Below the pieces are notes generated by a model, which ran no database searches, was not told where the DNA came from, and worked only from the letters and a program-made list of their open reading frames with translations. Made by a program: the position numbers and the translations under genes. 64,000 bases of DNA from Branchipolynoe longqiensis (lineage: Eukaryota > Annelida > Polychaeta > Phyllodocida > Polynoidae): NCBI GenBank assembly GCA_030323885.1, contig CM059198.1, positions 74,547,045 to 74,611,044 of the forward strand, read 5' to 3'. Shown one piece after another: positions 115 to 47,626 of this stretch (position 1 is the stretch's first letter; each line of letters starts with the position of its first letter).

Positions 115-237
115 GTGCGTAAGGCTGATTTCAACTCGGACATTCACCTTCAAACCTTTGGTGTGAGCGTGTACAGCCACATGGCCGAAGTGCCGGGCAG
201 GGTGCTGTCAGCGCCCAAACTGCAGTATGGGGGGCAG
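115..237 (+). CDS. AGO2: Argonaute exon (end of L2, start of MID)
   Basis: The acceptor CACTAG precedes GTG at 115 and the donor GTAAGC follows CAG at 237. The 41 codons begin and end in phase 0. The reading VRKADFNSDIHLQTFGVSV followed by GRVLSAPKLQYGG is the conserved Argonaute stretch where the L2 linker enters the MID domain (family pattern GRVLPAPxLQYGG). The following exon continues in phase 0 with [15 protein letters not shown], as in other AGO proteins. This is the most 5' exon I can identify; the preceding 114 bases did not yield a convincing further exon, so upstream coding sequence lies outside the window. The GC-rich exon contrasts with the repetitive intron after it. Confidence 0.9.
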
Positions 238-4556: not shown

Positions 4557-4690
4557 ACCAAAGCTCAGGTGGTGCCGAACCAGGGTGTCTGGGACATGCG
4601 GGGCAAACAGCTGTACCAGGGCATCCAGATACGCGTCTGGGCAATCGCCTGCTTCGCACCGCAACGAACCGTGGGTGAGGAGGCGCTCAG
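4557..4690 (+). CDS. AGO2: Argonaute exon (MID domain)
   Basis: The acceptor is GGTATTACAG before 4557 and the donor is CAG|GTCAGT after 4690. The exon starts in phase 0 and leaves two bases of an Arg codon. It reads [18 protein letters not shown] and then [13 protein letters not shown], the signature start of the MID domain (family pattern GVWDMRxKQF...WAIACFAPQ). The Arg codon is completed by the first base of the exon at 5831. The 134-bp length and both junction phases fit the downstream frame. Confidence 0.93.
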
Positions 4691-5830: not shown

Positions 5831-6015
5831 AAACTTCACCCAGCAATTACAGCGTATCTCTAATGATGCGGGGATGCCGATCATGGGCCAGCCGTGCTTC
5901 TGTAAGTACGCGACTGGGCCCGACCAGGTGGAGCCCATGTTCCGCTACCTCAAGAACACATACGCCGGGCTCCAACTGATTGTCGTCGTCCTGCCCGGCA
6001 AGACGCCCGTCTATG
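5831..6015 (+). CDS. AGO2: Argonaute exon (MID domain core)
   Basis: The acceptor is CCCTTCCAG before 5831 and the donor is TATG|GTGAGC after 6015. The sequence reads [19 protein letters not shown], then [40 protein letters not shown] and VY. This is highly conserved MID sequence. The Tyr of TPVY corresponds to the base-stacking Tyr529 of human AGO2 that grips the guide 5' nucleotide. It ends after the first base of an Ala codon, finished by the next exon. Confidence 0.96.
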
Positions 6016-7756: not shown

Positions 7757-7916
7757 CGGAGGTAAAGCGGGTTGGTGACATCATCTTCGGACTGGCCACA
7801 CAGTGCGTCCAAGCGAAGAATGTCAACAAGACGTCACCACAAACACTGTCGAACCTCTGTCTGAAAATCAACGTGAAGCTGGGCGGCATCAACAATATCC
7901 TCCTCCCAAGCATACG
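7757..7916 (+). CDS. AGO2: Argonaute exon (MID/PIWI junction)
   Basis: The acceptor is GTGTTTCAG before 7757 and the donor is ATACG|GTAGGC after 7916. It reads [19 protein letters not shown], then [20 protein letters not shown] and [15 protein letters not shown]. Lys of AEVK, Gln of ATQCVQ and Lys of KINVK match Lys533, Gln545 and Lys570 of the human AGO2 5'-phosphate pocket. The exon ends with two bases of an Arg codon. A GGAA/GGAT microsatellite begins only a few bases after the donor. Confidence 0.95.
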
Positions 7917-9358: not shown

Positions 9359-9449
9359 CCCCCAAGTGTTCAGAGAACCCGTCATCTTCCTGGGTGCTGA
9401 TGTGACACACCCGCCTGCAGGGGACCGATCCAAGCCATCCATAGCCGCC
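9359..9449 (+). CDS. AGO2: Argonaute exon (PIWI, first catalytic Asp)
   Basis: The acceptor is CCCACCAG before 9359 and the donor is GCC|GTAAGT after 9449. The first base completes an Arg codon, then 30 codons read [20 protein letters not shown] and [10 protein letters not shown]. The Asp in FLGADVTHP is the first residue of the DEDH slicer tetrad (Asp597 in human AGO2). It ends in phase 0, and the next exon continues VVGSMDAHP as expected for the family. Confidence 0.95.
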
Positions 9450-10026: not shown

Positions 10027-10221
10027 GTTGTAGGCAGCATGGACGCCCACCCGAGCCGCTACTCGGCCACCGTGCGAGTCCAGCAACACCGCCAGGAGAT
10101 CATTGATGATCTCAGCTCAATGATCAAGGAACTCCTCCTGCAGTTCTACCGGTCTACGCGCTTCAAGCCCACCCGCATCATCTTCTACCGGGATGGCGTC
10201 TCCGAAGGACAATTCAACCAG
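10027..10221 (+). CDS. AGO2: Argonaute exon (PIWI, catalytic Glu and second Asp)
   Basis: The acceptor is TTGTAG before 10027 and the donor is CAG|GTGAGT after 10221. The 65 codons in phase 0 read [60 protein letters not shown] and GQFNQ. The Glu of HRQEII (Glu637-equivalent, 'glutamate finger') and the Asp of [11 protein letters not shown] (Asp669-equivalent) are both retained. It is essentially colinear with vertebrate AGO proteins. Confidence 0.97.
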
Positions 10222-10794: not shown

Positions 10795-11031
10795 GTGCTG
10801 CACCACGAACTGCGCGCGGTGCGCAAGGCATGCATCAACCTGGAGGCTGGATACCAGCCAGGCATCACCTTCATCGTGGTGCAGAAGCGCCACCACACGC
10901 GTCTCTTCTGCGCTGACAAGAAGGACCAGATCGGCAAGAGCGGTAACATCCCCGCTGGCACCACTGTCGACGTCGGCATCACACACCCGACCGAGTTTGA
11001 CTTCTACCTCTGCAGCCACGCTGGCATCCAG
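10795..11031 (+). CDS. AGO2: Argonaute exon (PIWI domain)
   Basis: The acceptor is TCGCGTGCAG before 10795 and the donor is CAG|GTAACA after 11031. The 79 codons in phase 0 read [60 protein letters not shown] and [19 protein letters not shown]. These are PIWI core motifs ([17 protein letters not shown] and NIPAGTTVD) found in animal AGO proteins. Confidence 0.97.
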
Positions 11032-11756: not shown

Positions 11757-13310
11757 CATTATTGTCCCCACGGGTGGGCAGAGTGATGTAGGATGGGCGG
11801 TGTGATGTAGGATGGGTGGCAGAGTGATGTAAGATGGGCAGAGTGATGTGGGATGGGTGGCAGAGTGATGTAAGATGGGCGGCAGAGTGATGTAAGATGG
11901 GCGGAGTGATGTGGGATGGGTGGCAGAGTGATGTAGGATGGGTGCCAGAGTGATGTAAGATGGGCGGTGTGATGTAGGATGGGTGGCATAGTGATGTAAG
12001 ATAGGCATTGTGATCTAGGATGGGTGGTGATGTAAGATGGGTGGAGTGATGTAATTGTGATGTAGGATGGGTGGCAGAGTGATGGAAGATGGGTCATGGG
12101 ATGTAGGATGGGTGGCAGAGTGATGTAGGATGGGCGGAGTGATGTAAGATGGGTGCTGTGATGTAAGATGGGCAGCAGAGTGATGTAAGATGGGCAGCAG
12201 AGTAATGTAAGATGGGGGGTGTGATGTAAGATGGGTGGCAGAGTGATGTAAGATGGGTGGCAGAGTGATGTAGGATGGGTGGCAGAGTGATGTAGGATGG
12301 GTGGCGGTGTGATGTAAGATGGGTGGCAGAGTGATGTAAGATGGGTGGGGTGATGTAGGATGGGTGGTGTGATGTAAGATGGGCGGCAGAGTGATGTACA
12401 ATGGGTGGCGGTGTGATGTAAGATGGGTGGCAGAGTGATGTAGGATGGGGGATGTGATGTAAGATGGGTGGCAGAGTGATGTAGGATGGGTGGCGGTGTG
12501 ATGTAAGATGGGTGGCAGAGTGATGTAGGATGGGTGGTGTGATGTAGGATGGGTGGTGTGATGTAAGATGGGCGGCAGAGTGATGTACGATGGGCAGTGT
12601 GATGTAAGATGGGTGGCAGAGTGATGTAGGATGGGGGGGTGTGATGTAGGATGGGTGGTGTGATGTAAGATGGGCGGCAGAGTGATGTACGATGGGCGGT
12701 GTGATGTAAGATGGGTGGCAGAGTGATGTAGGATGGGGGATGTGATGTAAGATGGGTGGCAGAGTGATGTAGGATGGGTGGCGGTGTGATGTAAGATGGG
12801 TGGCAGAGTGATGTAGGATGGGTGGTGTGATGTAGGATGGGTGGTGTGATGTAAGATGGGCGGCAGAGTGATGTACGATGGGCAGTGTGATGTAAGATGG
12901 GTGGCAGAGTGATGTAGGATGGGGGGGTGTGATGTAGGATGGGTGGTGTGATGTAAGATGGGCGGCAGAGTGATGTACGATGGGCGGTGTGATGTAAGAT
13001 GGGCAGCAGAGTGATGTAAGATGGGCAATGATGTAAGATTGGTGGCAGAGTGATGTAGGATGGGTGGCAGAGTGATGTAAGATGGGTGGTGTGATCTAAG
13101 ATGGGTGGCAGAGTGAAGTATGATGGGGGATGTGATGTAGGATGGGTGGTGTGATGTAAGATGGGCAGCAGAGTGATGTAAGATGGGTGGCAGAGTGATG
13201 TAAGATGGGCGGTGTGATGTAAGATGGGCAGCAGAGTGATGTGTAGGATAGGTGGCAGAGTGATGTAGGATAGGCGGTATGATGTAACATGGGCAGAGTG
13301 GTGTAACATG
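11757..13310. repeat. 19-22-bp minisatellite, 1.55 kb, in Argonaute intron
   Basis: Variants of GTGATGTAAGATGGGCGGCA (GA) are repeated about 75 times, including higher-order repetition (blocks near 12400-12700 and 12700-13000 recur almost identically). It ends about 145 bp before the acceptor at 13455. Long His/Ser/Pro/Thr/Ile-rich frames on the minus strand (up to 525 codons) come only from the repeat. Confidence 0.92.
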
Positions 13311-13455
13311 GGCTTTATCCTTCGACTTTGGCCCATTTGAAAACACTCCGGCCGCTTGCTCAGACTATTGCGTCTGTGGGCCGCTGTCTTTCGATCCCAT
13401 TGTTACTGTATGCATGTCTGCCTTGCCTTCTGAGCCTTCCCGCTGTCTGCTCCAG

Positions 13456-13655
13456 GGCACAAGCCGGCCGTCACACTACCACGTCCTGTGGGACGACAAC
13501 CACTTCAACGCAGACGAGCTGCAGATGCTCACCTACCAGCTGTGCCACACGTATGTGCGCTGCACGCGGTCCGTGTCCATCCCCGCGCCTGCGTATTACG
13601 CGCATCTGGTCGCCTTCCGGGCCCGCTACCACCTGGTGGAGAAGGAGCACGACAG
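13456..13655 (+). CDS. AGO2: Argonaute exon (PIWI, catalytic His), last constitutive exon
   Basis: The acceptor is TGCTCCAG before 13456 and the donor is GACAG|GTGAGT after 13655. It reads [60 protein letters not shown] and VEKEHD plus two bases (AG) of the next codon. The His in YYAHLVAF is the fourth DEDH residue (His807-equivalent). Both candidate terminal exons supply C to complete a Ser codon and then continue in frame. The intron to the nearer one is 10.5 kb. Confidence 0.97.
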
Positions 13656-13714
13656 GTGAGTGCCTGGAGGAGAGGGGGCACTTTGACAGGCCAACTTCAC
13701 AGAGGCTTTGCTCT

Positions 13715-14220
13715 TATAAATATATATATTAATATATATCTATATCATGGAGGTTTTTCTCTTTTAAATATATAAATATTTATATATGTCATGGAGGTTT
13801 TTCTATACATATTTATACATACCTCCCACTTGGCCAATCTTTCGTAACGCCCACCCCTTTTTTTTCTCTTTTTTTTCCTTTTTTTTGTGACAAGTTTTTT
13901 ATTCTGCCCATAACGTATAAGCGTGCTTGTTTTCAACGCTGGAACCCTTAAACGCCCATATGTGCGTAAACAGCCTCCCCCAACTTCAATGATTTGCCAA
14001 TTTAAATGCCCAGGGCGTTAACCTGTGAGAATACGGGATATATATGTACATATGTATACATAATTATATATATTTAAAAGAGAAAAGCCTCCATGATATA
14101 TATATGACCATATGGGTATATATGTATATATATATATATACGAGTAGGCCAAATTCATGGAATCTATTCTCTTAAATTTATATTGATATATTTCATTGGC
14201 CAAATTCATGGCATTTCTAT
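13715..14220. repeat. AT-rich region with inverted copies and a MITE-like segment
   Basis: ATATATATCATGGAGGTTTTTCTC at 13740-13800 is repeated and is inverted at about 14070-14105 (GAGAAAAGCCTCCATGATAT). Between them, about 13840-14044, lies a sequence resembling the element at 19547-19684 (AAACGCCCATATGTGCGTAA, CAATGATTTGCCAATTTAAA, CAGGGCGTTAACC, GAATACGG). It looks like nested, decayed inverted-repeat elements. Confidence 0.55.
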
Positions 14221-14759
14221 ATATTATATCTAGTCGCTGTATGGAGATGCTTCCTACTGAGTGTGGACGGTTGTGGGTGGGGGGGGGGGACTCACTGGTT
14301 TTAACTGTGTGCTTCATATTGTTTATTATATTACAAAACTAAAATAGTTGATTTGATTGCATTCAGCTAATTACTGGCTTTTGTCAGTTGTAATCTCAAG
14401 AAGCTTGTAAAGAGTTGTTCCTGAAACTGCATGCTAACTGGATTTTGAACTGGACTTAAAAATGTTAACTTTATGTGGCATCTTTTCATTGTATCACTGC
14501 AATTGAGCCTTTGTTCTGTTATTGTTTAAGCACCTGCCACTTGATTTATTCAATGCAAGATGGTGGATGGGAAATTGCAGGCATGATATATTTAGTCACA
14601 ATTTCAGTGGGGTTATTTGTGCGTATCAAGTATCGAAGCCCACAAAAAAGTTTAATTCAAATTAATTCTGGTTTCTATCAATCACCAAATTTAGTTGTGG
14701 ATTAGTAGAATCTTAATTGTTTCACACAAAATGTCATGTTGAAGTTCCACGGTAGCATA
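14221..14759. other. Unassigned intronic sequence
   Basis: A G-run near 14279-14289 and otherwise AT-rich unique-looking sequence. No exon is supported. Confidence 0.55.
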
Positions 14760-16380
14760 TGCGAAATTGTGGACAGATTAAATTATTTATTCAGTCATAT
14801 GGTTAACTTCAAAATTGTTGCCAGATTAATTGGCATTTGATCATGCTATAAATTGTGGACATCTTCATTGACATTTAATCACATGGTTATGTTCAAAATT
14901 GTTGAAAGCTTTATTGACATTCGATCATGCAGTTATGTTCAAAATTGATTACATTTATTGACATTCAATCGCGCAGTTATGTTCAAAATTGTTGACAGAT
15001 TAAATAACATTCAGTCATGTTCTGTTCTAAATTGTTGACACTCATTGACATTCAATTACACAGATATGTTCAAAGTTGACAGATTTATTTACATTCAATC
15101 ACACCGTTATGTTAAAATTGTTTACATTTATGACGCTCAATCATGCAGTTATGTTCAAAATTGTTTACATTTATTTACATTCAATCATGCAGTTATGTTC
15201 AAAATTGTTTACATTTGTTTACATTCAATCATGCAATTATGTTCAAAATTGTTTACATTTATTTACATTCAATCATGCAGTTATGTTTAAAATTGTTTAA
15301 ATAAACATTCAATCATGTAATGTTCAAAATTGTTTACATTTATTTACATTCAATCATGCAGTTATGTTTTAAGTTATTGACAGGTTTATTGACATTCAAT
15401 CATGCAGTTATGTTCGAAGTTGATTCCATTTCTTTACATTCAATCATGTAGTTATGTTCAAAATTGTTTACATTTATTTACATTCAATCATGCAGTTATG
15501 TTCAAAATTGTTTAAATAAACATTCAATCATGTAATGTTCAAAATTGTTTACATTTATTTACATTCAATCATGCAGTTATGTTTTAAGTTATTGACAGGT
15601 TTATTGACATTCAATCACGCAGTTATGTTCAAAGTTGATTCCATTTCTTTACATTCAATCATGCAGTTATGTTTTAAGTTTTTGACAGGTTTATTGACAT
15701 TCAATCACGCAGTTATGTTCAAAGTTGATTCCATTTCTTTACATTCAATCATGCAGTCATGTTTTAAGTTTTTGACAGATTTAATTACACTCAATCACAT
15801 AATTATGTTCAAAGTTGTTACAGATTTAATGACATTCAGTCATGTTATGTTCTAAATTGTTTACTATTATTGACATTCAAATATGTGGTTATGTTAAAAG
15901 TTGACACATTTATTTACATTCAATCCTGCAATTTTGTTCAAAATTGGTATCATACTATGTTCTAAATTATTAACACTCATTGACATTCAAACATGCAGTT
16001 ATGTTCAAAGTTTTTGACACATTTATTTTCATCCAATCATGCAATTCTGTTCAAAATTGTTTACATATTGCATTCAATCATGCCGTTGTGTTCAAAGTTG
16101 TTGACACATTTATTTACATTCAATCACGCAGTTAATTTAGAAGTTTTTGACATTTATTTGCTGATTTGTTTATATTTATTTACATTCAATCACACAGTTA
16201 TGTTAGAATTTGTGAACAGATTTATTTACATTCAATCACGCAGTTATGTTAGAAGTTAACACATTTTTTACATTCAATCACTCAGTTATGTTCACAACTT
16301 TTTACATTTACTTACATTCAATCAACCAGTTAGGTTCAAAATTGTTTGCATTTATTGACATTCAATCATGCTGTTATGGG
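14760..16380. repeat. 44-bp minisatellite, about 1.6 kb
   Basis: Units of the form ACATTTATTTACATTCAATC + ATGCAGTTATGTTCAAAATTGTTT are repeated with substitutions and small indels from about 14780 to 16378. Some blocks (for example 15290-15400 and 15500-15600) recur as higher-order units. Short open frames with HSIMQLC-type repeats are by-products. Confidence 0.92.
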
Positions 16381-16759
16381 CAATTCATTCACCCCAAAAT
16401 GACCCACATATGCACAAGCTTGACCTCTCATGGTAGCCATGTTGCTGGTTCTCACCACTTTGGTTGGGCTTGTCTGGTTGATTGTTGTTGTTTTGTGCTT
16501 CTATCTGAGTGTGTGTTTGCACCTATGATGTAGTTGTATGCACCTCGTGCTTCACCATGAGACAGTTACTTATATGGACAGTGCTTCCCCTTCTTGTGCA
16601 TCTCTGAATGTTGTCTGCGGCGAACAGTAAATGTCGTCTGCTGTCACAAAGATAATCAATCGATTACAACTTTTAGATTGAAGAATACATTTTGCGTGGA
16701 AAATGGTGACCTTTTTTTCATTGAAAAATGCACACACTATGTACATATTTTGTTTAAGG

Positions 16760-16870
16760 ATATTTCTATGTGTATATATATGGATATATATATTATATAA
16801 TCTATATATTTACATTTACTTACGTAGTATATATATGGATATATATATATATTATAATCTATATATTTCA
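16760..16870. repeat. TA-rich microsatellite
   Basis: Alternating TATATATGGATATATATATTA runs in the Argonaute intron. Confidence 0.8.
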
Positions 16871-17664
16871 TAGACATATTTTTTGTGTGATTTCTTTTAT
16901 TTTAAGCAATTTAATTGACAACATGTAACTTTTCATTGCAATTATCACGCGGAAATAATATGCATATATATTTATTTTAGAATGTAATTAACAACAGATG
17001 ACCCTTGGTCAAAACTGACATGTGTTCAGAATGTAATTGACGGCAGACGACATTTAGTGATGGCGGCCATGTGGAGGGAGGGGGTGGCGGGGTGATAGGG
17101 TTCAGACAATTAATGGTGACTAGAGTAATCTCGAATCCTGTTTCTAGTGCTTTATGAAGCCTACGTTGTGGGACGATACCAAACTATGAGCTAGTTGTTT
17201 CAGGTATACTGCAGTACCCCCCCCCCCCCCTCCATCTCCTCTCACTGTAGAGCTTTGCGTTTAGTTCTAAGACTGCACCCCTCCCCCTCCACACACACGC
17301 AGACGCAGACGCGCACACCATATGTATTAATTATGTTAGTGTACAGTAAAAGCGCAATCAAGCACTACAATAGCAAATTTTAAAGTTAAACTAACAAAAT
17401 TAAAAAAAATTATTATTGAAATAGTGAAGCACCGTTTCTTTTTCGTTTTTTAAATCATGAAAAAAGGACACGTGTTGGAATGATTAACTGTTATTTTTGG
17501 TTAGTGCGTTACTAGTTCTGCGAGGTTGTTCTCACAGTTGTGTTAGGGACCGTCCAAAGTTGTCAACATTTTCAAGGTCGTGCAAAGAGTACTACTTTTC
17601 CAGACCCCGCTCTACGCCGTTCCCTTCCCCACCAAAAGTAGTACACATCAATATTTTACTACAG
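16871..17664. other. Unassigned intronic sequence
   Basis: AT-rich intron with a C-run near 17217-17231. The block near 17540-17645 (GTTGTCAACATTTTCAAGG, AAAGTAGTAC) has loose relatives at 58364-58410 and 59080-59130. No exon is supported. Confidence 0.5.
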
Positions 17665-17865
17665 ACCCAGACGGGGTGGCTGAATGAGTTGAACGCTCGC
17701 CCATAGGTCATGGGATTCGAACCATGGTCAAATCAAACCAATTACTTTTAAATGTATACTTGTCACTACCTAGCCTGACGTTCGGCATTACTAGGATAGG
17801 GCAAGAAGCAGTGGAATAAGGAAGACCAATTGTCTGCGATTTAAAATTCAGACCCGTTTACCTCA
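17665..17865 (+). mobile_element. tRNA-derived SINE-B (short-tail type)
   Basis: The head CAGACGGGGTGGCTGAATGA and B box GGGATTCGAACCATGGTCAA are followed by the SINE-A/B body. The element then switches to the short-tail module AAGCAGTGGAATAAGGAAGA + CCAATTGTCTGCGATTT instead of the long tail. Confidence 0.82.
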
Positions 17866-18816
17866 AATTTGGGAAATTGAGACCCTTTTACCTCATATTT
17901 CCTATTTGGGCACTACCGTGAAAAATAATATGTACTTTCAACAAATATTTCGTACTTTAAATAAAAAATTGGTATACACATTTTTTTATTTTGCATATTG
18001 TCGTTCTGATAAAAGTTGTACTTGACTGACACCCCTCCCCCTCTCCCTGTCATGCGCATTGTACGAGCGTGGAAATGTTGATAACCTTGCACAGCCCCAT
18101 AGTGACTTTTTTACCGGACTGTTTGTGGGGAGCAGGCCCAGTGGTAGAACCCAGCCCACACCCTGAAAACTGGGGGCGGGCTGATTCATTACACACAAAC
18201 AAAGCACGCAAGTCTGTGCCCTTAGTGAGAAAGTGGTACACGACCAGGAATTAACCCGTGTCCAACGCAGTATGCGCCATGTCTTTGGGTGAGAATCCAA
18301 GCGTGTCTAATTGGTAGTGGTATTTTGAATAAAAGGTAATCATTAAACAAGATTAAAGTTAATCACAGGTAATAAGATGTTAGACCTTTTTTTGGGGGGG
18401 GGGGGAAACAAAAAACGACATTTTGTTGATTCTGTAACTGTAGGCGATGTAATTAAAGAAAACAATTGGTAATATTGGAGGTGGTGTGCAGTGGATTAAT
18501 TTGTTTAATATGATTAATGAGGTGGGGGGGAGTTAATGTTGGTGGGGTGTATATTAATTTTAGAACTGTGATTAAAGTGACAAATTGGAAGTATTGTGTG
18601 TGAGATGCAATGGAGGAACGCTAGAATTAGGGACTTAAACTCATATAGGGGGAAAACCCCAACTAACTATAATGTAATCGAAATGAGCTAGTATGACGCT
18701 GGTGATGCGGGTGGGGGGTGGGGGAGAACCACCCGAACACCTTAGTGGACGATAATAAATGCCTCAAGGGTACTATGTACATATCTATATGCATAGTGTA
18801 TGTATGCATACATGTA
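17866..18816. other. Unassigned intronic sequence
   Basis: AT-rich with poly-T/G tracts (18387-18405) and TA-rich runs near 18775-18810. I see no exon or recognised element. Confidence 0.5.
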
Positions 18817-19272
18817 CCGTCTCAAAAGGTGATTTGTCCACGTAACGATTGACACAAAACAGCGCAGGAACGGTTACATTGATAAACAAGAAGATAACGA
18901 CATTTGCTTCAAATCAATATATGTTCTATTGAGAGTAAAAAAATAAATAAAGCAGGTTATCCTGAGCAAATGCATATTTGCGTCACAAACAGATAGTATG
19001 TTGATCATTACAATGGACAAAGTTTTGTTCCATATTAGTTAACGTGATTTCTTTTGTCCACGTAATGATTGACACAAAACAGCACAGAAACAGTTACACT
19101 GAAAACACAAGACAAAGACATTTGCTTCAAATCAATGTGTATTCTATTCAGAATATGAAATGTGTAAAGATAAAGCAGGTTATCCTGAGCCGATGCATAT
19201 TTGCGTCTTAATCAGATAGTATGTTGATCATTACAAGTTTTATCCCATGTTAGTTATCACCTTGTGAGACAG
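18817..19272. mobile_element. Dimeric MITE with GAGACNGTCTCAAAAGGTG ends
   Basis: ACCGTCTCAAAAGGTGAT at the left and ATCACCTTGTGAGACAGTCT at the right are inverted repeats. The interior has two tandem copies of a roughly 210-bp block (GATTGACACAAAACAGC ... ACATTTGCTTCAAATCAAT ... GTTGATCATTACAA). Single-copy relatives are at 28385-28633 and 61392-61650. Confidence 0.8.
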
Positions 19273-19290
19273 TCTCGTGTGTATATGACC

Positions 19291-19533
19291 ACTACCCTAA
19301 ATGGCCCATCTAAAGTCGATATCATGGTCGGTCGATTTAGAGAGGTTTTACTGTATAGTAAAACCTCTAACCGACCACCTCCACAGATCGACCACTCCCC
19401 TCTATCGATCGGTTTATTTGGGTCCCAACAATACCATTGTAACCATATTCTAACTCCCTAAGCCGACCGCCTCCCTAAATGGACCACTTTAAGTCGGACC
19501 CAAGGTCAGTCGATTTAGAGAGGTTTTACTGTA
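19291..19533. mobile_element. Mariner-type MITE, CAGTAAAACCTC ends, plus a half copy
   Basis: Full copy 19352-19533 runs from TAGTAAAACCTCTAACCGAC to GAGAGGTTTTACTGTA, with TA at both borders. It is preceded directly by a right-half copy ending GAGGTTTTACTGTA. A relative of about 195 bp is at 34472-34668. TA target duplication and these ends suit a Tc1/mariner-derived non-autonomous element (inference). Confidence 0.78.
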
Positions 19534-19546
19534 TGTGTGTACACCG

Positions 19547-19684
19547 TATTCTCGCGGGTTGATGCCCATGTGTGGGTTAACGCCCCCTCCTTAAATGCCC
19601 ATGTGTGGGTAAACGCCCACCACCCACTTCAGCGATTTGCCAATTTAAACGTCCAGGGCATTAACCCGCTCGGATACGGTATAT
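19547..19684. mobile_element. Short MITE, ACCGTATTCTCGCGGGTT ends
   Basis: The left ACCGTATTCTCGCGGGTTGA pairs with the right TTAACCCGCTCGGATACGGT. The interior has repeated AAATGCCCATGTGTGGGT. It is about 138 bp and related to sequence at 13840-14044. Confidence 0.75.
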
Positions 19685-20229
19685 AAAAGGCCCACTAAGA
19701 CTAGGCGCCCACACACTGCCCACCCCCACCCCCTGCCACATCCTGCCACCTTCAGCTGTCACCTCGTTGACACTTGTTGCCGTTGCCATGACAGACAGAG
19801 TTGTACCACATCTGATATATTAATTCTTCTGTTTTGGTTTTGGTTTCAGTTCGTCAGAGAACTGGGGTCAAAGGTCAGAAACTATCTTTGAAACCTTACA
19901 TTACAAATTCACCTTCTTTCAGTAACTCCCCGTCCTTCCGCAGGGTGTCGCGGCGCTCCCCATGCCGCCCACCCCCTGGCTTTTTTTTTTTTTACCCCCT
20001 TGCCCCCTTAATTTATTTTTGTCCATTGCCCCCCCCCCCTCCCCTTTTTTCCTTTTTTTTTTGCGGCTGGCCATCCACTGTCACAGCTCAAACACACCAG
20101 GCTTGCCTCGTGAACATTTTTTTTATAGACACTGCTTCGTGTGATAAAAACATGTCTAAGTGACATTTTGCATAGACACTGTTCACCGATTACAAATATA
20201 TATATATATACATATATGTACATCTATAT

Positions 20230-20848
20230 ATGGGTTGTCAAAAACTGTGTACCACTTACATGCAAACCAAAAGTGAAAACATTCCAAATAATAGCAGAAT
20301 CCATATTCATATGACCATCCTATTATGACCTTCGATGTTGCTAGGACATAAACCAACAAACAAACATTCATATGTTGTGCAAATGTCACAATTGAAAGTT
20401 GTTTCTTTTTTCACTTTTTGATTTCATACAAATTGAGAAAGCTGTTAAAATTAACCGTGTAACATCCATCCATAACATCATTTTAATACACGTCTATAAC
20501 ATCATTATAATACACATCCATAACATCATTTTAACAACAAATTCAAACAAGATTTTATTCATTACAGTTTAGCCAAAAGAATTGTTTCTTACAAGAAGAA
20601 AGGTTTTTTAAATGTTTGGGTAGATGTATGGTGTCGACGTGCAAACTTTCATATTTTATCTTTAGCACAAAATAATAGCATATTTTTGGATACATTTTTG
20701 GGGGGATAGATTAAATACATGTACTATGTAGTATTGCTAACATACTTAATACAAGGAGTCAACAATAACTGCATACATAAGACAACATCATCACCAATGT
20801 AACATCGAAATCAAAATTGTGGTACACATTTTCTGAGAATGACCCTTA
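20230..20848 (-). mobile_element. MITE with GGGTCATTCTC ends, interrupted by a SINE-A fragment
   Basis: The right end (ATTTTCTGAGAATGACCCTT) and internal blocks (CAAACCAAAAGTGAAAAC, TTCCAAATAATAG, ATAACATCATTTTAATACA) match, in opposite orientation, the element at 23038-23615. A SINE-A tail fragment (CTATTATGACCTTCGATGTT ... ACAAACAAAC) sits at about 20318-20368. A three-copy repeat of about 33 bp lies at 20460-20540. Confidence 0.65.
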
Positions 20849-21650
20849 AAATAATCTATTATTATTGTCATTAGTGTTATTATTAATATTCCCCACCAGT
20901 TTATCAAATAAAGGCCGAACAAGAGTAAATTGTTTGTGACGTACCCCACTGCCCAGTTGTAAGCTTTGGACTGTCCCTAGTGCTGTGTCTACAGCTTGTA
21001 TACGTTTCATACCAAAGTGTTCGCGAACGGATATAATACAATAACTACAAAATGATGCATCTTTGATAGATAGTGTTAGCACGGTCTTGCTTCCCCCTCC
21101 CCCTCCCCCACCCCTTTAAACAAATATTTTTTCAATTACTTTTTTTGTGATGGTTGATGAGGCCTGGCTATGGTGTTGGGGTGGTTTATGCAAACACGTA
21201 CAATTAACCACAATATGGCTGCAGAGAGTTGAGCGCTTGTCTACAAATCTATAAAAAACCTCCAACAATTACTGTTTCCTGTTTATTAAAGTATAATAAC
21301 ATGGATGTATATCAGTAATTCCACATGTCAATTTGAAATAGTCTTCTTGACGTAGGTGGGCATAGGCTGCTACTACCATAGGTTTGGCAGGTTTACCGGC
21401 TGCCAAGAAATGTGTAGCCCGTCAGGGGAAATAATCTCAAATTAACGCAAGCGACAAGGGACTGTAGGTTAGCGGCTAGTCTAGGTCTAGCAGGACAGTG
21501 GGATTGCAGTCAACACCGGTAGTGTTAACCTTAATGTGCTATAACTAGTTGAATTAACCCAAATGACGTCATGACGCTTGTTAGTGACAGGTGGTGTGAC
21601 ATCATGGGACCGCCCACCCCTTTGCCTGGCAGTCGTCTATAGGCCGTTAC
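20849..21650. other. Unassigned intronic sequence
   Basis: A CCCTCCCC tract near 21090-21115 and otherwise no identifiable exon or repeat. It ends at the MITE starting near 21652. Confidence 0.5.
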
Positions 21651-21651
21651 C

Positions 21652-21908
21652 GGGCTGCGTTCAGGGTGCGGCTCGGAGACGTCTCATGGAAATCCTTGAC
21701 GTCACGCTAGTCTGAACCACAAAAGCAGTTTGTTGCCTCAAAAATGGCCACCCCCATAGGCAGTGGCCATTTGCAATGGAAAAGCTGCGCTATGATTGGC
21801 TGAAACCACTGAATATGGTGGCCATTTTCGAAGCGCCTTTTGTCTCCTGTCTGAAATGGGAGGCGTCTCCGAGACATCTCTGAGACGCACCCTGAACACG
21901 GCCCAGGT
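21652..21908. mobile_element. MITE with GGGC-GTTCAGGGT-CG ends
   Basis: The left GGGCTGCGTTCAGGGTGCG pairs with the right CGCACCCTGAACACGGCCC. Subterminal GGAGACGTCTC and the interior ATGATTGGCTGAAACCACTGAA plus GGTGGCCATTTTCGAAGCGCC are diagnostic. Two further copies are at 27122-27398 and 59380-59585. Confidence 0.85.
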
Positions 21909-21984
21909 CTAAAGCGGCAACGACAAGCCTCCTGTCGTCTAACTCATGCTCGACAGACCCAACACTGGCTACAAGGGCTCACGG

Positions 21985-22320
21985 ACCCTTCAATGAGGCT
22001 TTATTCAGGATTCAATGAGGCTTCACTTTGGCTTTATTGGGGCTTCACTTAGGCTTTATTGAGTCTTTATTGAGGCTTCAATGAGGCGTCATTGAGGCTT
22101 TATTGGGGCTTCAGTTTGGCTTTATTGGGGCTTCACTTAGGCTTTATTGAGGCTTCACTGAGGCTTCATTGAGGCTTTATTGGGGCTTCAGTTTGGCTTT
22201 ATTGGGGCTTCACTTAGGCTTTATTGAGGCTTCACTGAGGCTTCATTGAGGCTTTATTGGGGCTTCAGTTTGGCTTTATTGGGGCTTCACTTAGGCTTTA
22301 TTGAGGCTTCACTGAGGCGT
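21985..22320. repeat. 12-13-bp repeat with 77-bp higher-order unit
   Basis: The basic motif GGCTTTATTGAG/GGGGCTTCACTTA is repeated throughout. From about 22085 a 77-bp block (CTTCAGTTTGGCTTTATTGG ... CTTCATTGAGGCTTTATT) occurs about three times. Confidence 0.88.
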
Positions 22321-23037
22321 ATCTTGCAGAATCTGTGGTTGGACTCCAGTCTCATCACACTAGACACTTTAACAGAAGGTGACCCACCCTCCTGTCACCC
22401 CTATGCACTGTCTTCTTTCTGGTTCAATAACCACAATTAAACACACCACCAATGCTGCCTTCTAAATATAACAAAGCAACCCACAATTTAATCCAAATCA
22501 CTGAGCATATCTAATCCAGCTTCTGTGGCACAGTCCGTCTTGTATTCTACTCAGGAGATATTTTTACAAAATTACCGGAGGTGCTTGTCATGTTTGTGTT
22601 AAAGTATTTAAACACACCAAGCGTTTTCTGACTATGTAACTTTTCTTTGCACCCCCCTCCCCCCACCCGACCCCACACACACTCCTCTTCTCCCATCCCC
22701 AAATTCATCGTCATTTCACGAAATAATATTCACACTTAATTGAAAAATCCCCGGTTCGAGTGATGGTTAGAAAGGGAAGAGTAATGAAAGCGTAATCAAT
22801 CATTATCCTAATGGGGAGCGTCAGTTCGATTGCACTGTACTTCTAACTTAGAACTACAGCGCAATGTTTTCGGGATCACATTCGCATCCTTTGATCAGGG
22901 CAGGTTGTCTCCAGTGAAACAGCTATGTAAACAATCAAGCCACCTTCCACCTGCTTCCATCTGCTTAAGCAGATGTGCATTTGTATCTGCACATCTTGCT
23001 GCATAGTTAGTACTTTCTCAGTTTGAATCTACCCGTA
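22321..23037. other. Unassigned intronic sequence
   Basis: Includes a CCCCCCTCCCC tract near 22651. No exon or mobile element is recognised. Confidence 0.5.
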
Positions 23038-23615
23038 TATGGTCATTCTCCAAAACTGGGCACCACATATTTGGTCTCCACGTTACGATGCTGATAATTA
23101 AGTCTTAGTTTTATTGATAGCAAGTAAAATAATTATTGTAGCCTCTGTCTATTAGGTATGTTAGCAGTTCTACATGTATTGAATTTATCCCACAAAAGAT
23201 ATCAAAATTATAATTGTATGTTTTTGCACGAGAGTGAAAATGTGAAAATTTACACATTGACACCATACATGTAGCCAAACTTTTTCAAATTTTTTCTTGT
23301 AAGTCATAACCTTGTCTGCTTAACAGTAATCAATCAAATCTTGTTTGACTATGTTGTATATGTTAAAATGAGGTTCTGGATGTGTCTTTGATTTTCATGT
23401 TACACAAGTGATATTAATGTATTTCTCAATTTGTATAAGATCTAATTCAAAAAGTGAAACTCATTTTATTCAACTGTGACATATGCATAACATCCAAAGC
23501 TTCATAGGACATTGGATTAGGCTATTATTTGGAAGGATGTTTGCTATTATTTGGAAGGTTTTCACTTTTGGTTTCCATGTCACACTTTTGTGGCCAGTTT
23601 TGGAGAATGACCCAT
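23038..23615. mobile_element. MITE with GGTCATTCTCCAAAACTGG ends
   Basis: ATGGTCATTCTCCAAAACTGG at the left and CCAGTTTTGGAGAATGACCC at the right are near-perfect inverted repeats about 575 bp apart. The interior is AT-rich and non-coding. The relative at 20230-20848 is inverted. Confidence 0.8.
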
Positions 23616-23725
23616 ATACCTGTTTGACCTCTGCTAGGATGCTCCCCCCCCCCCCACACACACACCCATATCCTCTCAGCTGGCTTTTCAAGTTGATATG
23701 GCTTCCTGCATGGCTTCAATACATA

Positions 23726-24005
23726 GGGAGCGGGACGTAGCTCAGGTGGTAGAGTTCCCACCTGTGTATCATCCTATCGATCCTCCTCATTGGACTCATT
23801 TGCAGTTTGTCCTATTTTCTGTTCCAACCGGTGGTCAACAACTGGTTCATCAAAGGCTGTGGTATGTGCTATCCTGACTGTGGGAAAGTGCATATAAAAA
23901 CCCCTTGCTGCTTATCAGAAAGAGTAGCCTATGTGGCGGCAGCGGGTTTCCTCCAAAGAAATATGTCAGAATGACTATATGTTTGTTAAATAAAACAAGC
24001 TTTGG
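23726..24005 (+). mobile_element. tRNA-derived SINE-C
   Basis: The head GGGACGTAGCTCAGGTGGTA is followed by CCTATCGATCC, CTATTTTCTGTTCCAACCGG, GTGCATATAAAAACCCCTTG, GGCGGCAGCGGGTTTCCTCC and the GTTAAATAAAACAAGC tail. It is missing the short segment before the tail that the copy at 10437 keeps. Confidence 0.87.
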
Positions 24006-24183
24006 CTTCAATACGTAACCCCCCCCCCCCATAATCCCCCCTCCTTCTGCTCTTGTACATGTAGCTGCTGTAGTCGCTGATCTCCCTCCTCCCCCCGCCC
24101 CCCCACACATCACTCAGACGCCACACTGATTAACCCATGTGTTCTCTCTCTTTTCTTTTTTTCTGTTTCTCCTCGTTTTACAG

Positions 24184-24292
24184 CGGTGAAGGTAGTCAAT
24201 ACTCGGGAAACAGCGATGAAAGGAACTTCGCGGCCATGGCACGCGCCATCTCTGTTCACCACGACACTCTCAAAGTGATGTACTTTGCCTAG
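24184..24292 (+). CDS. AGO2: Argonaute terminal exon, proximal alternative
   Basis: A polypyrimidine tract ending CGTTTTACAG precedes 24184. The first base completes the Ser codon begun at 13654-13655. The exon then reads GEGSQYSGNSDERNFAAMAR and AISVHHDTLKVMYFA, with a TAG stop at 24290-24292. The C-terminal MYFA is the invariant end of animal AGO proteins; its carboxylate packs in the MID pocket (family knowledge). Candidate AATAAA poly(A) signals follow at 24434 and 24479. It resembles, but is not identical to, the exon at 26737, and both are compatible with the same upstream donor. Confidence 0.9.
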
Positions 24293-24433
24293 ACTCACCG
24301 ATCTCTTCTTAAAGTCAAACGCAGATCCACCCAACCACCCGAATCAATCGATAATGAAACCAGCTCTGCGGCCGTTCACTTGCTCAAAGGTTGCAAATTT
24401 ATGTTTTAAGCCCAACTAAGTAATATATACATG

Positions 24434-24484
24434 AATAAATAATTATTATAATATAGCAAAAAGAAGAATGAAATATGAAATAAA
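24434..24484 (+). promoter_or_regulatory. Candidate poly(A) signals of proximal Argonaute terminal exon
   Basis: AATAAA occurs at 24434-24439 and at 24479-24484, about 140-190 nt past the stop codon at 24292. The assignment rests on position and motif only. Confidence 0.5.
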
Positions 24485-24492
24485 CGCCCCCC

Positions 24493-25435
24493 CCGCCTAA
24501 AGAAATGATAAAGTGAATGGTGAAAGATGGAAAAATTGTGAATTAAAATAAAAAGGTTTTTTTTTTTTTTAATTTTTTTTAAAAAAAAGAAAAAGAAAGG
24601 TCTGCCGAGCAGTTGAGCGTCCGCCGGTGTCAGTAAGTGTAGAGTGTGGCCTCAAGTTGTGAAGTAGATGGGCAGCAAACTAAACTCAGCACTCAAGGTC
24701 GAGCTGAAAACACCACAGCCCTCTGCAATTGCGTCTTGGCCATGAAGACACAGACATGCATCTTGTGTGTATAGCTATCTGTGTAGTTCGGCGTAATGGT
24801 AGTGTTTCTTGTTTGTGTGTGCTGAAGAAATAGTTCACACGTTCAGATGGGGAGAGAGAAAAAATGTTCACTGGGTTTTTGAAACTCAGTTTTAGTAACA
24901 CATTGAATAATTATTTTAAAAGGAAGGGAAGAAGAAAAAAAATATATATATGTATATCATGCTCATTAACAATTAGACTGGTTGTCGAAACAACCCAAAA
25001 ATACCATGGTCTGTTTAAAATGTTCATTTTGTTTCACTTTATTTTTTTTTCAAACTTGCTGGTGACTTTCACTCCCTCGGGTTCATCAAGTACTTCATAC
25101 AGAGGTCAAATTCCCACCAGAGTTCAAAGTTACTAAAAAGGTCAGAGGTCAAGGTCACCATTAACCTTTGTCTGGTCAGCATTTATAGTCGATTTCAAAC
25201 AATTCTTCCGGCCCTTTTTCTTTACCCCCACCCCTATTTTAATTTCTTTCCCCGTACAATTTAAGTATTGCTTGTTGCATTTGGCTAAAGTGGACGAATT
25301 GAAATATTGTGTCCTTGAAGGCTTTGTTAGTGTAACAGTGTTATATATATGATATAGGAAGTCACGGTCTGTTCTAGAAAGTCTGGCATAAGGGTATGGC
25401 TGGTCTTAATAATGTTACGAAGTGGTTGTTGGTTT
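24493..25435. other. 3'UTR/intron sequence without recognised features
   Basis: Contains T- and A-runs near 24555-24600. No coding exon or mobile element is recognised before the MITE at 25436. Part may be 3'UTR or intron of Argonaute, depending on which terminal exon is used. Confidence 0.5.
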
Positions 25436-25757
25436 TTTAAAGTTGCATAGTCCAATAAAAGGATCACTTTTTCAAAAGCACCACTCTATCTAAATTTGAA
25501 CCTACATATCCAACTTAGATGTGCTTATGAAGCATCCGTTGATGCATACTAAGCCGGTTTAATAGAACCTATTATCCACTGAAGCTTATGGGGGCTCAGA
25601 GGTTTGACAAGCACGACAACATTAATTTGGCATGCTTGCACTTCAAATATCGCACATGCTAGCTATTTTAATTCAAAGTTACTTCAAATGATCAACTTAA
25701 TATAATTTATCTCAGAAAATGACAAGCTCAAAACCATCGGCCTATGCAACTTTAAGC
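25436..25757 (+). mobile_element. MITE of the AAAGTTGCATAGTCC family
   Basis: Starts AAAGTTGCATAGTCCAATAA and ends CATCGGCCTATGCAACTTTAA. Internal TTGAACCTACATATCCAACT, CTTATGAAGCATCCGTTGAT and GCACTTCAAATATCGCACA are shared with copies at 29267 and 36127. It is non-coding. Confidence 0.85.
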
Positions 25758-26736
25758 ACCATCTAGGAAACAAACTGTGGTGTGCACACACAAAAAGAAA
25801 AACCACGTGACCGTTGGTTTGGTCACGTGACCATTGGGTTAGTATTTGGTTGTAAACGACGTGTGGCTTTGCCTAGTCTGCGTGAGGCACACTGCAGTCA
25901 CGTGGTTCTGTTCACCCACGTGTGAGTGGTGTCGCCCAACCTGTGTGGTTGTACATGGAAGCTGTTTTGTGGGTTATTTCTAGGTGAAGGTTGTTTTGTT
26001 GAAACGGGGTCAGTAGGACGCGAGGGTGTGTCTAACGTAAATCAGGTCTCATTAGGTGAGCGTCCATTGTAGTATTAGAGAATTAACAAAAAAGGAAACA
26101 CAAATTTGCTAATCAATGATTTATATATATATGTATGCATATGGACAAATAAATAGTTATTTTGGCTAAATCTTGAACGATCAAAAAAAAAATTGTTTAG
26201 CCAGGAGGAAAAGAAATTCCCTCATTACTCAACAAAGAAATGAACAATAAAATCTAGCCAGGTTTATTGGAAAGTGAAGGTATGAGGAAAGAATAACTAA
26301 CCCTCCCACCTACCGAACAACAAATGAGAATCAAATTGCCTTCTTTTTTTTTTCTTTTTTTTTTTTTTACTATTGTAATGTAAGCAAACCGAATTAAAGC
26401 CCCTATGAAATGCAGGAAGAAAACTACCCCCCTCGTCCCATTCCTTATGGAAGAACACCATACCCTGCGGGTTGAAAAAAAAAAAAAAGCGATGTGATGT
26501 GGGTTTTTTTCTGCACTATAATGTAAAAGCCAAAATATAAAAATAAAGTGTACCCACACAAACAAACAAAAAGAGAAAAGGCAAATGGTGAGCCCTCGAC
26601 CCGGCCGTGAGGTGGAAATCGGTGAGACTGACATGTAGACCCGTGGGAGGTGTTGGACGGAGGCGGTGCGGCACAGGTAAGGGAGTAGGAGGCGGGTGGC
26701 CGGCAACGTCTCACCATCTCTCCCTCTGTCTTTCAG
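25758..26736. other. Unassigned sequence before distal terminal exon
   Basis: Contains several CACGTG motifs (25800-25925), an AATAAAT near 26147 and pyrimidine-rich tracts. Open frames of 257 and 90 codons on the minus strand here have no recognisable domain. Confidence 0.5.
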
Positions 26737-26866
26737 CGGTGTGGGCAGCCAGCACAGCTCCGCTAACGGGGGCTCCGGCTCCGGCGACTCGCCCCGCCCA
26801 TTCGACGCCATAGCCAAGGCGGTGCAGGTCCACGCAGACTCCATCAGCGTCATGTACTTTGCCTGA
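26737..26866 (+). CDS. AGO2: Argonaute terminal exon, distal alternative
   Basis: The acceptor CTCTGTCTTTCAG precedes 26737. C completes the Ser codon from the exon ending 13655. The exon then reads GVGSQHSSANGGSGSGDSPR, PFDAIAKAVQVHADSISVMY and FA, with TGA at 26864-26866. It has the same phase, a similar Gly/Ser-rich entry and the same MYFA end as the exon at 24184. The AIAKAVQVH helix is closer to the usual animal AGO C-terminus than the proximal version. I see no AATAAA in the next 1.3 kb, so its 3' end is not defined. Confidence 0.9.
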
Positions 26867-28730: not shown

Positions 28731-29266
28731 TATATATATTATATTACATATATATATATTATATGTATAAGAAATGATACAATTGTCTGCCTGAGTTGAA
28801 AGTACTCGGTGCCTGGTCAGAGTGTAAATGTAGTTATGCATCGCCTGCACTGACACAGCAGGACTAATATGATTGCCAATAGATTACTGGTACATTACGG
28901 GTTCTTCTGAGAGTGATAACTAAAATGTGGACATTATGTGACGATCTTACAGGTGGATAGGTTATGTGTATCCTGTGAGGGATAGGAGGTCGAGGGGTCT
29001 GTAAGGAAAACCTAAACAAGTAATAAACCAGACTATTTTTATTTAAATTTTTTTTTTCCCGACTCCGAAAAAATAAAAATAAATATGACATTGTTTTAAT
29101 TATTCGGACCCAAACTGGCAGCTAATATACCCAGGGTTAAAAGGCGGGCCATGAATATTACGTGAACTAAAGCCAAGGGTTTAATTGTATTTTCTCAATG
29201 AATATCACTGAAGCAGTCATTCAGTCTAGCTGGTGCTAAAACTTTAAGATTTTTGTTTTTCTCTTA
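28731..29266. other. Intergenic sequence without recognised features
   Basis: A TA-rich start and AATAAA-like motifs near 29020 and 29074. One of these could serve the distal Argonaute 3'UTR, but nothing in the sequence proves it. Confidence 0.4.
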
Positions 29267-42361: not shown

Positions 42362-42850
42362 GTGGCCTGCACTGACCTGTCAGGCAAGGAGCCGCATAAA
42401 CAGGTAGGTGTGGGTAGGGTGGTGATATCAGGGAGCCTAGGTGGTGTAATGGTTAGCACACTGGCCCAGAATGCAAAGAGATGTGGGTTTGAGTACCGCT
42501 CTAGACGCAATATTTCACATTTTCATCACTCCCCACTACACTGGTTGCCATGACCATGATCCTGTACAAGCTATGCACTGTATGGTTGTTGAACTTACCC
42601 TGCGTAAGTGTAAGTGCACTGCTTGTATGTATGTAATTGTAAGCATTAAAAGACTTACAATTCCAGGGGGACGAGTGTAGTGGTCTGCACTGACCTCTGA
42701 GGCAAGCAGCCACATAGACAGGTAGGCATGGGGTGTGTGGTGATATCAGAGAGCCTAGGTGGTGTAATGGTTAGCACATTGGCCCAGAATGCAAAGACAT
42801 GTGGGTTTGAGTCCCGCTCTAGGTGCAATATTTCCCTATTTTCATCACCC
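42362..42850 (+). repeat. Two tandem copies of a tRNA-Gln-like retroposon segment
   Basis: Blocks at about 42362-42540 and 42672-42850 are about 85-90% alike. Each has TGGTGTAATGGTTAGCACA (A box and D arm as in tRNA-Gln) and GTGGGTTTGAGTACCGCTCT or its -GTCCCGC- variant (B box). The tRNA-like part is 42434-42510 and 42754-42830. The acceptor stem does not close well, so I regard both as tRNA-derived retroposons, not functional tRNA genes. Confidence 0.65.
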
Positions 42851-44775: not shown

Positions 44776-44908
44776 CTGTTAAATGAATGAAGAAGACAGG
44801 GTGAAAAATGGCAAACAGGTGAGGAGGGTTTTGTTGAGGCTAGCAAGTCTAGACAACTAGTCTGTATAGTTTTACATCTTTACATTGCAGTTAAGGCCCT
44901 GTCACATT

Positions 44909-45217
44909 GGTCGTAATGCGAAGCATTACGTTTGATGCGAGGGGAGGAAGAGACCCCCCCCCCCCCGCCCCCCGTGTTGCGCTGCCTTCGCACCTCGGCC
45001 GACCACGTCGCCGCCGCCTCCTCCCCCCGCCCGCTCTCCTTTGTCCCGCGGCGCTCACGCCTCGCGCGACTGCCGCTGCTCGCCACCTCTCACCCTCCCC
45101 CGGCCTGCCAGCATTCGCACCTCCCTGCCGCCGCCGTCCCTTCCCCCCTTATAAGGCCGCCCGCCGGCCCTCCTCCTCATTCACCTCCCTGCCGTCTTCC
45201 TGCCCTCTTCATTTTCT
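44909..45217 (+). repeat. Split direct repeat A1
   Basis: 309 bp, matched almost base for base by 47277-47585. It contains a C-run, then GC-rich sequence with a TATA-like CCCCTTATAAGGCCGCC near 45146 about 120 bp before the gag start codon, a plausible promoter (inference). Confidence 0.85.
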
Positions 45218-45266
45218 ACATTTTCTACATTTGGACTTCCACCTCGGACCGCCTCCACAACGCACC

Positions 45267-46184
45267 ATGCCCCGAGGAAGAGGTCGTGGACGCAAGAGCT
45301 CCCGGGCTGCCCCCCGGACGCCGGGGCCTTCATCAACACCGCCCCGGGAGGAGTCGCCGGCTTCACTCCCGGCGTCCCCCCCGGCCCCCTCGGACCGCGC
45401 CTCGGGCTCCGAGGTATCCATGCTCCTGGAGGCCATGCAGCGCATGCAGCGCGAGAGCCGAGAGGCCGCCGCCGAGGCCGCCGCCGAGGCCCGCCAGGCA
45501 GCGGCAGACCTCCACGCCCGGATCGACGCCCTCGTGCCGGAGCAGCCCGCCCTGGCGCCTCGGGCGCGCACCACCACTGCAGCCCGGCCACCGCCGCCGC
45601 CTCACGCGAGCCTGCCCGGGGCACCGCTGGCGGAGTACGAGAGGTACCGTCACCTCCCCGCGTCCCCGGCCTACCAGGAGGACTTCACCCGCCACAGCCC
45701 CGCATCCGCGGCCGACGCCGTCCGGGAGATTTTGGCCTCCGCCGAGGCGCGGCACTCCACCAGGCGGCAAGGTATACCAGCAAAATACATCTTTCCTTCT
45801 GATCTGGTGAAGCGAGGGGCGGAGAGGAAGCCGGTCAAACGAGGGGAGGCGACAAAGGACGAGTACACGCTCGCCCTCCTCAACCTCATCGACCACCCCG
45901 ACTTCCCCGCCCACTCCGCCCAGGGACTCCACCAACACCTCCTCGGGGTTTGCCGGGACAACTTAATATACCCGTGGGCTACCGTCCGCCGATATTCAGA
46001 GAGTGTCTTCTCTGCCATCGCGGACGGAACCCTCCCCCACGGGTGGCACGACCTGGTGGCCATCAACCTCCACAGACTCGACTGCCTCGCCATGCCCGAG
46101 GACCACGCCACCGCCGGCCCCCGCCCGCCCACTCGACCACCTCCAGCGAGGCGCGCACTTCCCCCGAGCCCAGGCCTACGATAG
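45267..46184 (+). CDS. Gag-like protein of the DIRS-like element (first frame)
   Basis: I chose ATG 45267 because it follows A1 directly and has a good context (GCACCATGC). The 305 codons begin MPRGRGRGRKSSRAAPRTPG, a basic Arg/Gly start. A Pro/Ser-rich segment and an Ala/Glu/Arg-rich probable coiled coil follow (residues about 50-90, EAMQRMQRESREAAAEAAAE). A folded-looking part after residue 165 includes IPAKYIFPSDLVKRG, YTLALLNLIDHPDF and NLIYPWATVRRYSESVFSAI. The frame ends in Pro-rich sequence. The conserved-looking sequence continues in another frame from about 46130 (next entry). It is gag-like by position and architecture; no exact family assignment is possible by eye. Confidence 0.65.
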   Translation: MPRGRGRGRKSSRAAPRTPGPSSTPPREESPASLPASPPAPSDRASGSEVSMLLEAMQRMQRESREAAAEAAAEARQAAADLHARIDALVPEQPALAPRARTTTAARPPPPPHASLPGAPLAEYERYRHLPASPAYQEDFTRHSPASAADAVREILASAEARHSTRRQGIPAKYIFPSDLVKRGAERKPVKRGEATKDEYTLALLNLIDHPDFPAHSAQGLHQHLLGVCRDNLIYPWATVRRYSESVFSAIADGTLPHGWHDLVAINLHRLDCLAMPEDHATAGPRPPTRPPPARRALPPSPGLR

Positions 46185-47585: not shown

Positions 47586-47626
47586 CCACCCACCCACCCT
47601 ACTCCATCCTTACTCTCTTCCTTATC

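Follow-up and report, generated by a model that had tools for sequence, protein, structure and literature searches.

Two candidate alternative last exons, differing in the eukaryotic insertion, in an Argonaute gene of the polychaete Branchipolynoe longqiensis

Argonaute (AGO) proteins bind small guide RNAs, and in human AGO2 a short segment near the C terminus is phosphorylated. Here, we report two candidate last exons encoding this segment in an AGO gene of the annelid Branchipolynoe longqiensis. The gene lies in a 64-kb stretch of contig CM059198.1 (74,547,045-74,611,044, forward strand; G000:C13:74547045-74611044), called the window below; coordinates are positions in it. The plus strand of the window holds the 3' half of the gene. 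The gene model, built from the window and 40 kb upstream, has 18 coding exons (E1 to E18); it begins at a manually placed 5' end of E1, and the start of the protein lies further upstream, outside the model. E10 and E18 are each present as two copies (a and b, in 5' to 3' order), and both exon combinations translated (E10a with E18a and E10b with E18b) read without interruption to the terminal stop. Features of the gene within the window are as follows.

115..237, plus strand: E10b, second copy of the L2-linker exon (VRKADFNSDIHLQTFGVSVYSHMAEVPGRVLSAPKLQYGGQ; tblastn, AG/GT flanks, profile scan independent E value (iE) 1.5e-11)
4557..4690, plus strand: E11, MID domain exon (tblastn, joined translation)
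5831..6015, plus strand: E12, MID domain exon (joined translation)
7757..7916, plus strand: E13, MID/PIWI exon (joined translation, human AGO2 alignment)
9359..9449, plus strand: E14, first catalytic Asp, GADVTH (joined translation, human AGO2 alignment)
10027..10221, plus strand: E15, catalytic Glu and second Asp (joined translation, human AGO2 alignment)
10795..11031, plus strand: E16, PIWI exon (joined translation)
13456..13655, plus strand: E17, last exon common to both tails, with the catalytic His (EHD at its end, then the AG that begins the split Ser824 codon)
24184..24292, plus strand: E18a, proximal terminal exon (Ser824/828/831/834 equivalents, MYFA-TAG, stop at 24290-24292)
24434..24552, plus strand: poly(A) signals after E18a (AATAAA at 24434, 24479 and 24547; ATTAAA at 24542; T runs at 24557 and 24573)
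26737..26866, plus strand: E18b, distal terminal exon (diverged tail rich in Gly and Ser, MYFA-TGA)
29022..29083, plus strand: first AATAAA signals after E18b (29022, 29072 and 29078), presumed to serve an E18b transcript

The protein joined with E10b and E18b has ArgoN, L1, PAZ, L2, MID and PIWI domains, all above the Pfam cut-off, and aligns end to end with human AGO2 (4ola_A, residues 23-859). D597, E637, D669 and H807, the catalytic residues of human AGO2 (DEDH), are identical here (4/4, alignment to 4ola_A). With an incomplete C-terminal chain as the query, the nearest PDB chain was human AGO2 (E, 1e-171), and the best Piwi chain scored 1.9e-33. A FastTree phylogeny of 45 tips (the present gene and 44 listed AGO proteins, with PIWI proteins left out) placed the gene in one clade with the leech Helobdella robusta and seven other sequences (support, 1.0), which makes an annelid the most likely host. 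The 1.85-Gb genome gave 18 matches to the Piwi family at four loci. At the other three (C7, C9 and C10), identity to annelid AGO was about 40% over 56 to 78 residues, and their exons presumably encode PIWI proteins, which they resemble in their motifs. Because these three loci read as PIWI, the genome appears to have no AGO-clade gene besides the present one. Capitella teleta is likewise reported to have one Ago, with two PIWI (PMC8915122), and a lophotrochozoan RNA interference survey retrieved siAGO from neither annelids nor molluscs (PMC11114477).

E17 ends in GAG CAC GAC AG, followed by the intronic gtgagt. Downstream of this one donor lie two acceptors of matching phase, and the exon that each opens has its own stop. 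The sequence upstream of E18a is ...ctcgttttacag, and that upstream of E18b is ...tctgtctttcag; joined to E17, the proximal tail reads SGEGSQYSGNSDERNFAAMARAISVHHDTLKVMYFA and the distal tail SGVGSQHSSANGGSGSGDSPRPFDAIAKAVQVHADSISVMYFA, both followed by a stop. In a six-frame search of the window, M[YF]F[AS] plus stop occurred at the ends of E18a and E18b only. Acceptor pyrimidine fractions over 20 nt are 0.85 for E18a and 0.90 for E18b (third and second among 20 exons), values reached by 0.58% and 0% of 2,230 intronic or intergenic AGs, respectively. Sequence and translation thus bear out the initial annotation, which had placed here two terminal exons with a shared split Ser codon, good acceptors and MYFA-stop ends.

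Between E18a and E18b, 59 of 108 aligned nucleotides (49 differ) and 19 of 36 residues are identical, and the E18b tail is 7 residues longer. Protein searches of the whole genome, in which the best candidates only were scored (4 and 3 for the two tails), found each tail exon once, plus one weak match elsewhere (E, 1.85); searches with the E17 end and each tail returned no spliced retrocopy. The 14 kb holding E18a and E18b contains no Ns. Among the 20 largest of 40 repeat families, the direct repeats linking the surroundings of the two exons were of low complexity only, and a 196-nt repeat pair (21678 and 27137) lies outside both. These repeat families, together with the divergence of the tails, point to an old exon duplication. 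The duplication proposed initially stands in that both copies are open, in phase, preceded by strong acceptors and terminated by MYFA; its corollary, isoforms that differ in the tail alone, may be incomplete, because the L2-linker exon is also duplicated. A minisatellite (11772-13312) ends 144 nt 5' of E17.

In the alignment to 4ola_A, the E17/E18 junction falls inside the codon of human Ser824. The insertion of human AGO2 (820-837) contains S824, S828, S831 and S834; of these, S828 alone needs no priming and, once phosphorylated, primes S831, S834 is phosphorylated in phosphopeptides that carry the priming phosphate on S831, and phosphorylation of the insertion favours target release (PMC9154749, PMC13041839). 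D252, S253, R255, V256 and R286 in the PAZ domain are reported to dock CK1alpha (PMC13041839), and all five are kept in the present protein. E18a (S-GEG-S-QY-S-GN-S) has the full S828-x-x-S831-x-x-S834 spacing and all four serines (824, 828, 831 and 834). E18b (S-GVG-S-QH-S-SANGGSGSGDSPRP) has, by spacing, three of the four (S824, S828 and S831) and Asn at 834, the gapped alignment being ambiguous in part; beyond this Asn, seven more residues follow, with further serines, an SP motif and, in SGDS, an additional S-x-x-S pair. The distal form may therefore be phosphorylated differently, through a shortened CK1alpha relay or by another kinase. Phosphorylation had been one option among those offered for the tails in the initial annotation; the position of the exon junction in the Ser824 codon makes it a specific reading.

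Proteins were searched with E17 plus each tail, and the best 120 of 2,661 and best 120 of 1,144 matches were listed; these 240 matches represent 187 distinct proteins, of which 186 had their tails examined (that of P0069 fell outside; rotifer tails to 75 residues). The helix of the distal exon had originally been called canonical. It is instead the proximal tail that agrees with annelid AGO tails: the region of E17 and E18a has 93-96% identity to P0004-P0009, including Helobdella, and the proximal pattern is common to most invertebrate tails printed. AKAVQVH, a string within the distal tail, also occurs in vertebrate AGOs, and parts of the distal helix are present in P0148, P0124 and P0177. 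By sequence comparison, E18a is the ordinary tail and E18b the diverged one. Among bacterial genome contigs, one contig of a metagenome-assembled genome matched, covering little beyond the E17-encoded part of the query, and viral contigs gave no match.

The eukaryotic insertion varies in length among the listed AGO tails. P0126 and P0130-P0138 (the named ones from Daphnia) have an extra SGEGSLQDCIKSYT block in it, P0094 (Tubulanus) has a tandem SGEGSQQSGLSD repeat, and P0140 (Brachionus), P0152 and P0183 have long Gly/Ser/Thr stretches. P0001 (Merluccius merluccius, 1,289 aa) contains part of the AGO C-terminal region twice and is possibly a fused gene model.

Maintenance of E18b was assessed with a decay null, simulated in 4,000 runs with substitutions as the sole changes, in which E18b drifts under constraint on E18a; T = 0.6 matches the 49 differences in 108 nt. 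At this divergence, 11.0 ± 2.7 identical residues are expected and 19 are observed; at least 19 identical residues with no stop had a P value of 0.003, and MYFA with no stop was retained in 0.2% of runs. When substitutions were placed randomly, at least 19 of 36 identical residues arose in 0 of 20,000 runs, and at least 12 identical residues in the last 21 codons arose in 64 of 20,000. Over 36 codons, nonsynonymous and synonymous divergence (dN/dS) between E18a and E18b is 0.54/2.24. The GC content at third codon positions (GC3) of E18b is 0.84, compared with 0.45 in the flank. At matched divergence, neutral decay of E18b is disfavoured, and the decay null, GC3 and the acceptor, taken together, favour E18b as a working exon.

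The second duplicated exon encodes most of linker L2. E10a lies 1.5 kb 5' of the window (G000:C13:74545433-74545555); E10a and E10b each span 123 nt in phase 0 and are flanked by AG/GT; 83 of the 123 nt are identical between them, as are 30 of the 41 residues encoded. When both strands of 104 kb were scanned with exon profiles, only E18 (0.0053) and E10 (1.5e-11) had a second copy at an iE of <0.01, in a scan where the E10 profile included E8 and E9 columns and E8 matches were listed in part. Synonymous sites between E10a and E10b are near saturation (dN, 0.23); the corresponding decay null gave P values of 0.007 at 35 differences and 0/4,000 at 44, against an observed 40. The E10b acceptor has a weak pyrimidine fraction (0.55), and its donor is strong. 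A transcript with both E10a and E10b would keep frame. E10 includes the positions of human Ser387 and Tyr393. The latter, a known regulatory site in L2 of human AGO2, is Phe in E10a and His in E10b. Position 387 is Asp in both copies, as it is in 4ola_A; Ser387 of human AGO2 is an Akt3 site (PMC5507773). In an E10 peptide tree, E10b stood beside a Tubulanus sequence at low support (0.53), from which we draw no common origin for the annelid and mollusc exon pairs. A minisatellite (302-1661) starts 65 nt after E10b.

Annotated isoforms of molluscs alternate at the equivalent exon. Ten isoforms of Babylonia areolata divide 4 versus 6 between two versions of it, two isoforms of Aplysia alternate there, and each of the isoforms compared in Babylonia (10) and Aplysia (2) has one E10 version. 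In Mytilus californianus, the alternation is at the exon after L2 (P0016 and P0018 versus P0017 and P0020; 13 residues / SKSQAMPNQGVWD). As annotated, exon alternation is habitual for the AGO gene in molluscs; the L2 pair reported here, at the exon that alternates in Babylonia and Aplysia, suggests such a habit in the wider group. Separately, two of the ten Babylonia areolata isoforms (P0036 and P0037, isoforms X4 and X3) use an alternative exon that replaces 20 residues, among which the first catalytic Asp would be lost, so that exon choice, as annotated, would switch between slicer and non-slicer forms; at the present locus, the profile scan scored no second copy of the first-catalytic-Asp exon.

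We lean, if narrowly, towards E18a and E18b being two alternative last exons of an apparently sole AGO-clade gene, products of an old duplication that tune target release. Joining 13655 to 24184 and polyadenylating early, at signals 142-255 nt beyond the E18a stop, would give the ordinary AGO tail and a short 3' untranslated region (UTR). Splicing from 13655 to 26737 would require bypass of the E18a acceptor or poly(A) site, as is usual for alternative last exons, and would give the same catalytic and guide-binding core with a different eukaryotic insertion and C-terminal helix, probably with a longer 3' UTR. Because both exons begin at the Ser824 codon, the switch would replace the segment phosphorylated by CK1alpha; the distal form, phosphorylated differently, would then hold its targets for a different time. 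We infer from the sequence that both tails are spliced, that their use is regulated and that target release is affected.

A number of observations weigh against this reading, and several of them speak for other explanations. Both exons may be spliced with phosphorylation and release alike, and what matters may be the different 3' UTR (through mRNA stability, localisation or translation) or another property, an account to which we give a real but minority chance. The 3' ends differ greatly, since the nearest AATAAA is 2.2 kb beyond the E18b stop (weaker variants lie nearer, e.g., AATATA at 27722 and TATAAA at 28024) and the E18a signals begin at 142 nt; MYFA and a VH pair are common to both tails. 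In human AGO2 in vitro, moreover, single Ala substitutions at the sites other than S828, including S834A, did not change phosphorylation significantly, third sites could stand in for one another, and acidic residues, E826 among them, were neutralised with no consequence (PMC9154749). As S834A alone was without significant effect, the longer serine-rich insertion of E18b may outweigh its missing Ser834. The coding change, however, exceeds what a pure UTR switch would need: it alters 17 of 36 aligned residues and is focused on the eukaryotic insertion, which in E18b gains 7 residues and lacks a Ser at the 834 spacing.

That E18b is a decaying duplicate, no longer spliced, we consider unlikely. 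It would fit the lack of a distal-like tail in any of the 186 tails examined among the matches listed, and a search with the distal tail alone as the protein query, which gave 10 candidates, none with an E value of 10 or below. Against the main reading, too, the tail is constant across 28 annotated isoforms of six species. Both the absence from the listed proteins and this constancy are biased, because proteins were listed partly by tail likeness; the absence is weak evidence, because isoforms with very different tails rank low. Decay is also easier to accommodate if the true divergence is low (P values of 0.018 at T = 0.5, with 43.7 differences, and 0.30 at T = 0.3, with 30.7), and dN/dS over the last 21 codons is 0.41/0.99, close to 0.5, the value predicted if one copy is neutral, so the helix alone is compatible with decay. 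Set against this are the intact frame, the in-phase acceptor with the second-highest pyrimidine fraction, the MYFA-stop, the raised GC3 and the P value of about 0.003 at matched divergence, a figure that leaves the splice site and the absence of frameshifts uncounted. It is highly improbable that E18b belongs to a different Argonaute gene, as its terminal part, or represents a misassembled second copy: the tails are indeed far diverged, but within the 104 kb scanned no further AGO exon apart from L2 has a second copy at an iE of <0.01 (E8 matches being listed in part), each tail exon occurs once in the genome among the best candidates, and no Ns lie between them.

As alternative last exons tuning target release, E18a and E18b would extend a familiar protein. 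The present gene resembles the microRNA-type Argonautes of animals (AGO1/AGO2 clade) in its domains, DEDH residues, PAZ docking residues and MYFA end, and both tails have equivalents of S824, S828 and S831 by spacing; it differs in having two candidate last exons for the insertion in one gene. Marsupenaeus japonicus likewise has one AGO gene with isoforms (Ago1A/B/C) differing inside the PIWI domain, and virus load rose when the isoforms bearing the insert were knocked down, but there an 81-nt (27-residue) insertion is present or absent, in place of two homologous terminal exons (PMC3510085). Tandem duplicated or mutually exclusive exons (PMC9741552, PMC3228551) are also homologous neighbours in the same phase, and the L2 pair is, in addition, of equal length (123 nt); the tail pair would differ from them in being alternative last exons of unequal lengths with their own stops. 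AGO1x, an isoform of AGO1, has a changed C terminus too, produced by translational readthrough and not by exon choice (PMC7507497). Among the titles and abstract openings listed by searches of the open-access literature, none reports alternative last or mutually exclusive exons in an Argonaute. The tail pair is an alternation site without counterpart elsewhere in the isoforms compared; otherwise, this is alternative splicing of a known family.

The duplicated exons cover two regulatory places of human AGO2, Ser387/Tyr393 in L2 and Ser824-Ser834 in the insertion. A broader proposal, which we offer tentatively, is that, in an animal group reported to lack the siRNA Argonaute and with apparently one AGO-clade gene here, duplicated exons replace gene duplication: two L2 exons and two tail exons could give up to four types of RNA-induced silencing complex (RISC), and splicing would hard-wire, by tissue or stage, the tuning that vertebrates achieve by phosphorylation, chiefly that of RISC residence on targets. 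If both tails are made, a single AGO core would occur naturally with either of two CK1alpha segments, a pair such as is otherwise built by mutation, and the role of insertion phosphorylation in RISC residence time, and where it counts, could be tested directly in an animal. Annelids, and molluscs at other exons, would then diversify RISC through exon choice. For its BRAKER2 gene models, the lophotrochozoan survey reportedly collapsed isoforms to the longest, so it would be blind to such choice there (PMC11114477).

The rest of the window contains the following features.

42753-42825, plus strand: tRNA match (Rfam, 40.5 bits)
44907-46184, plus strand: 425-aa open frame, mobile-element-like, with no Pfam match; its 5' part occurs again at 47284-47661, 2.4 kb on
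48876-49286, minus strand: phosphofructokinase stretch in an open reading frame, probably an exon of another gene (Pfam PF00365; E, 2e-19)

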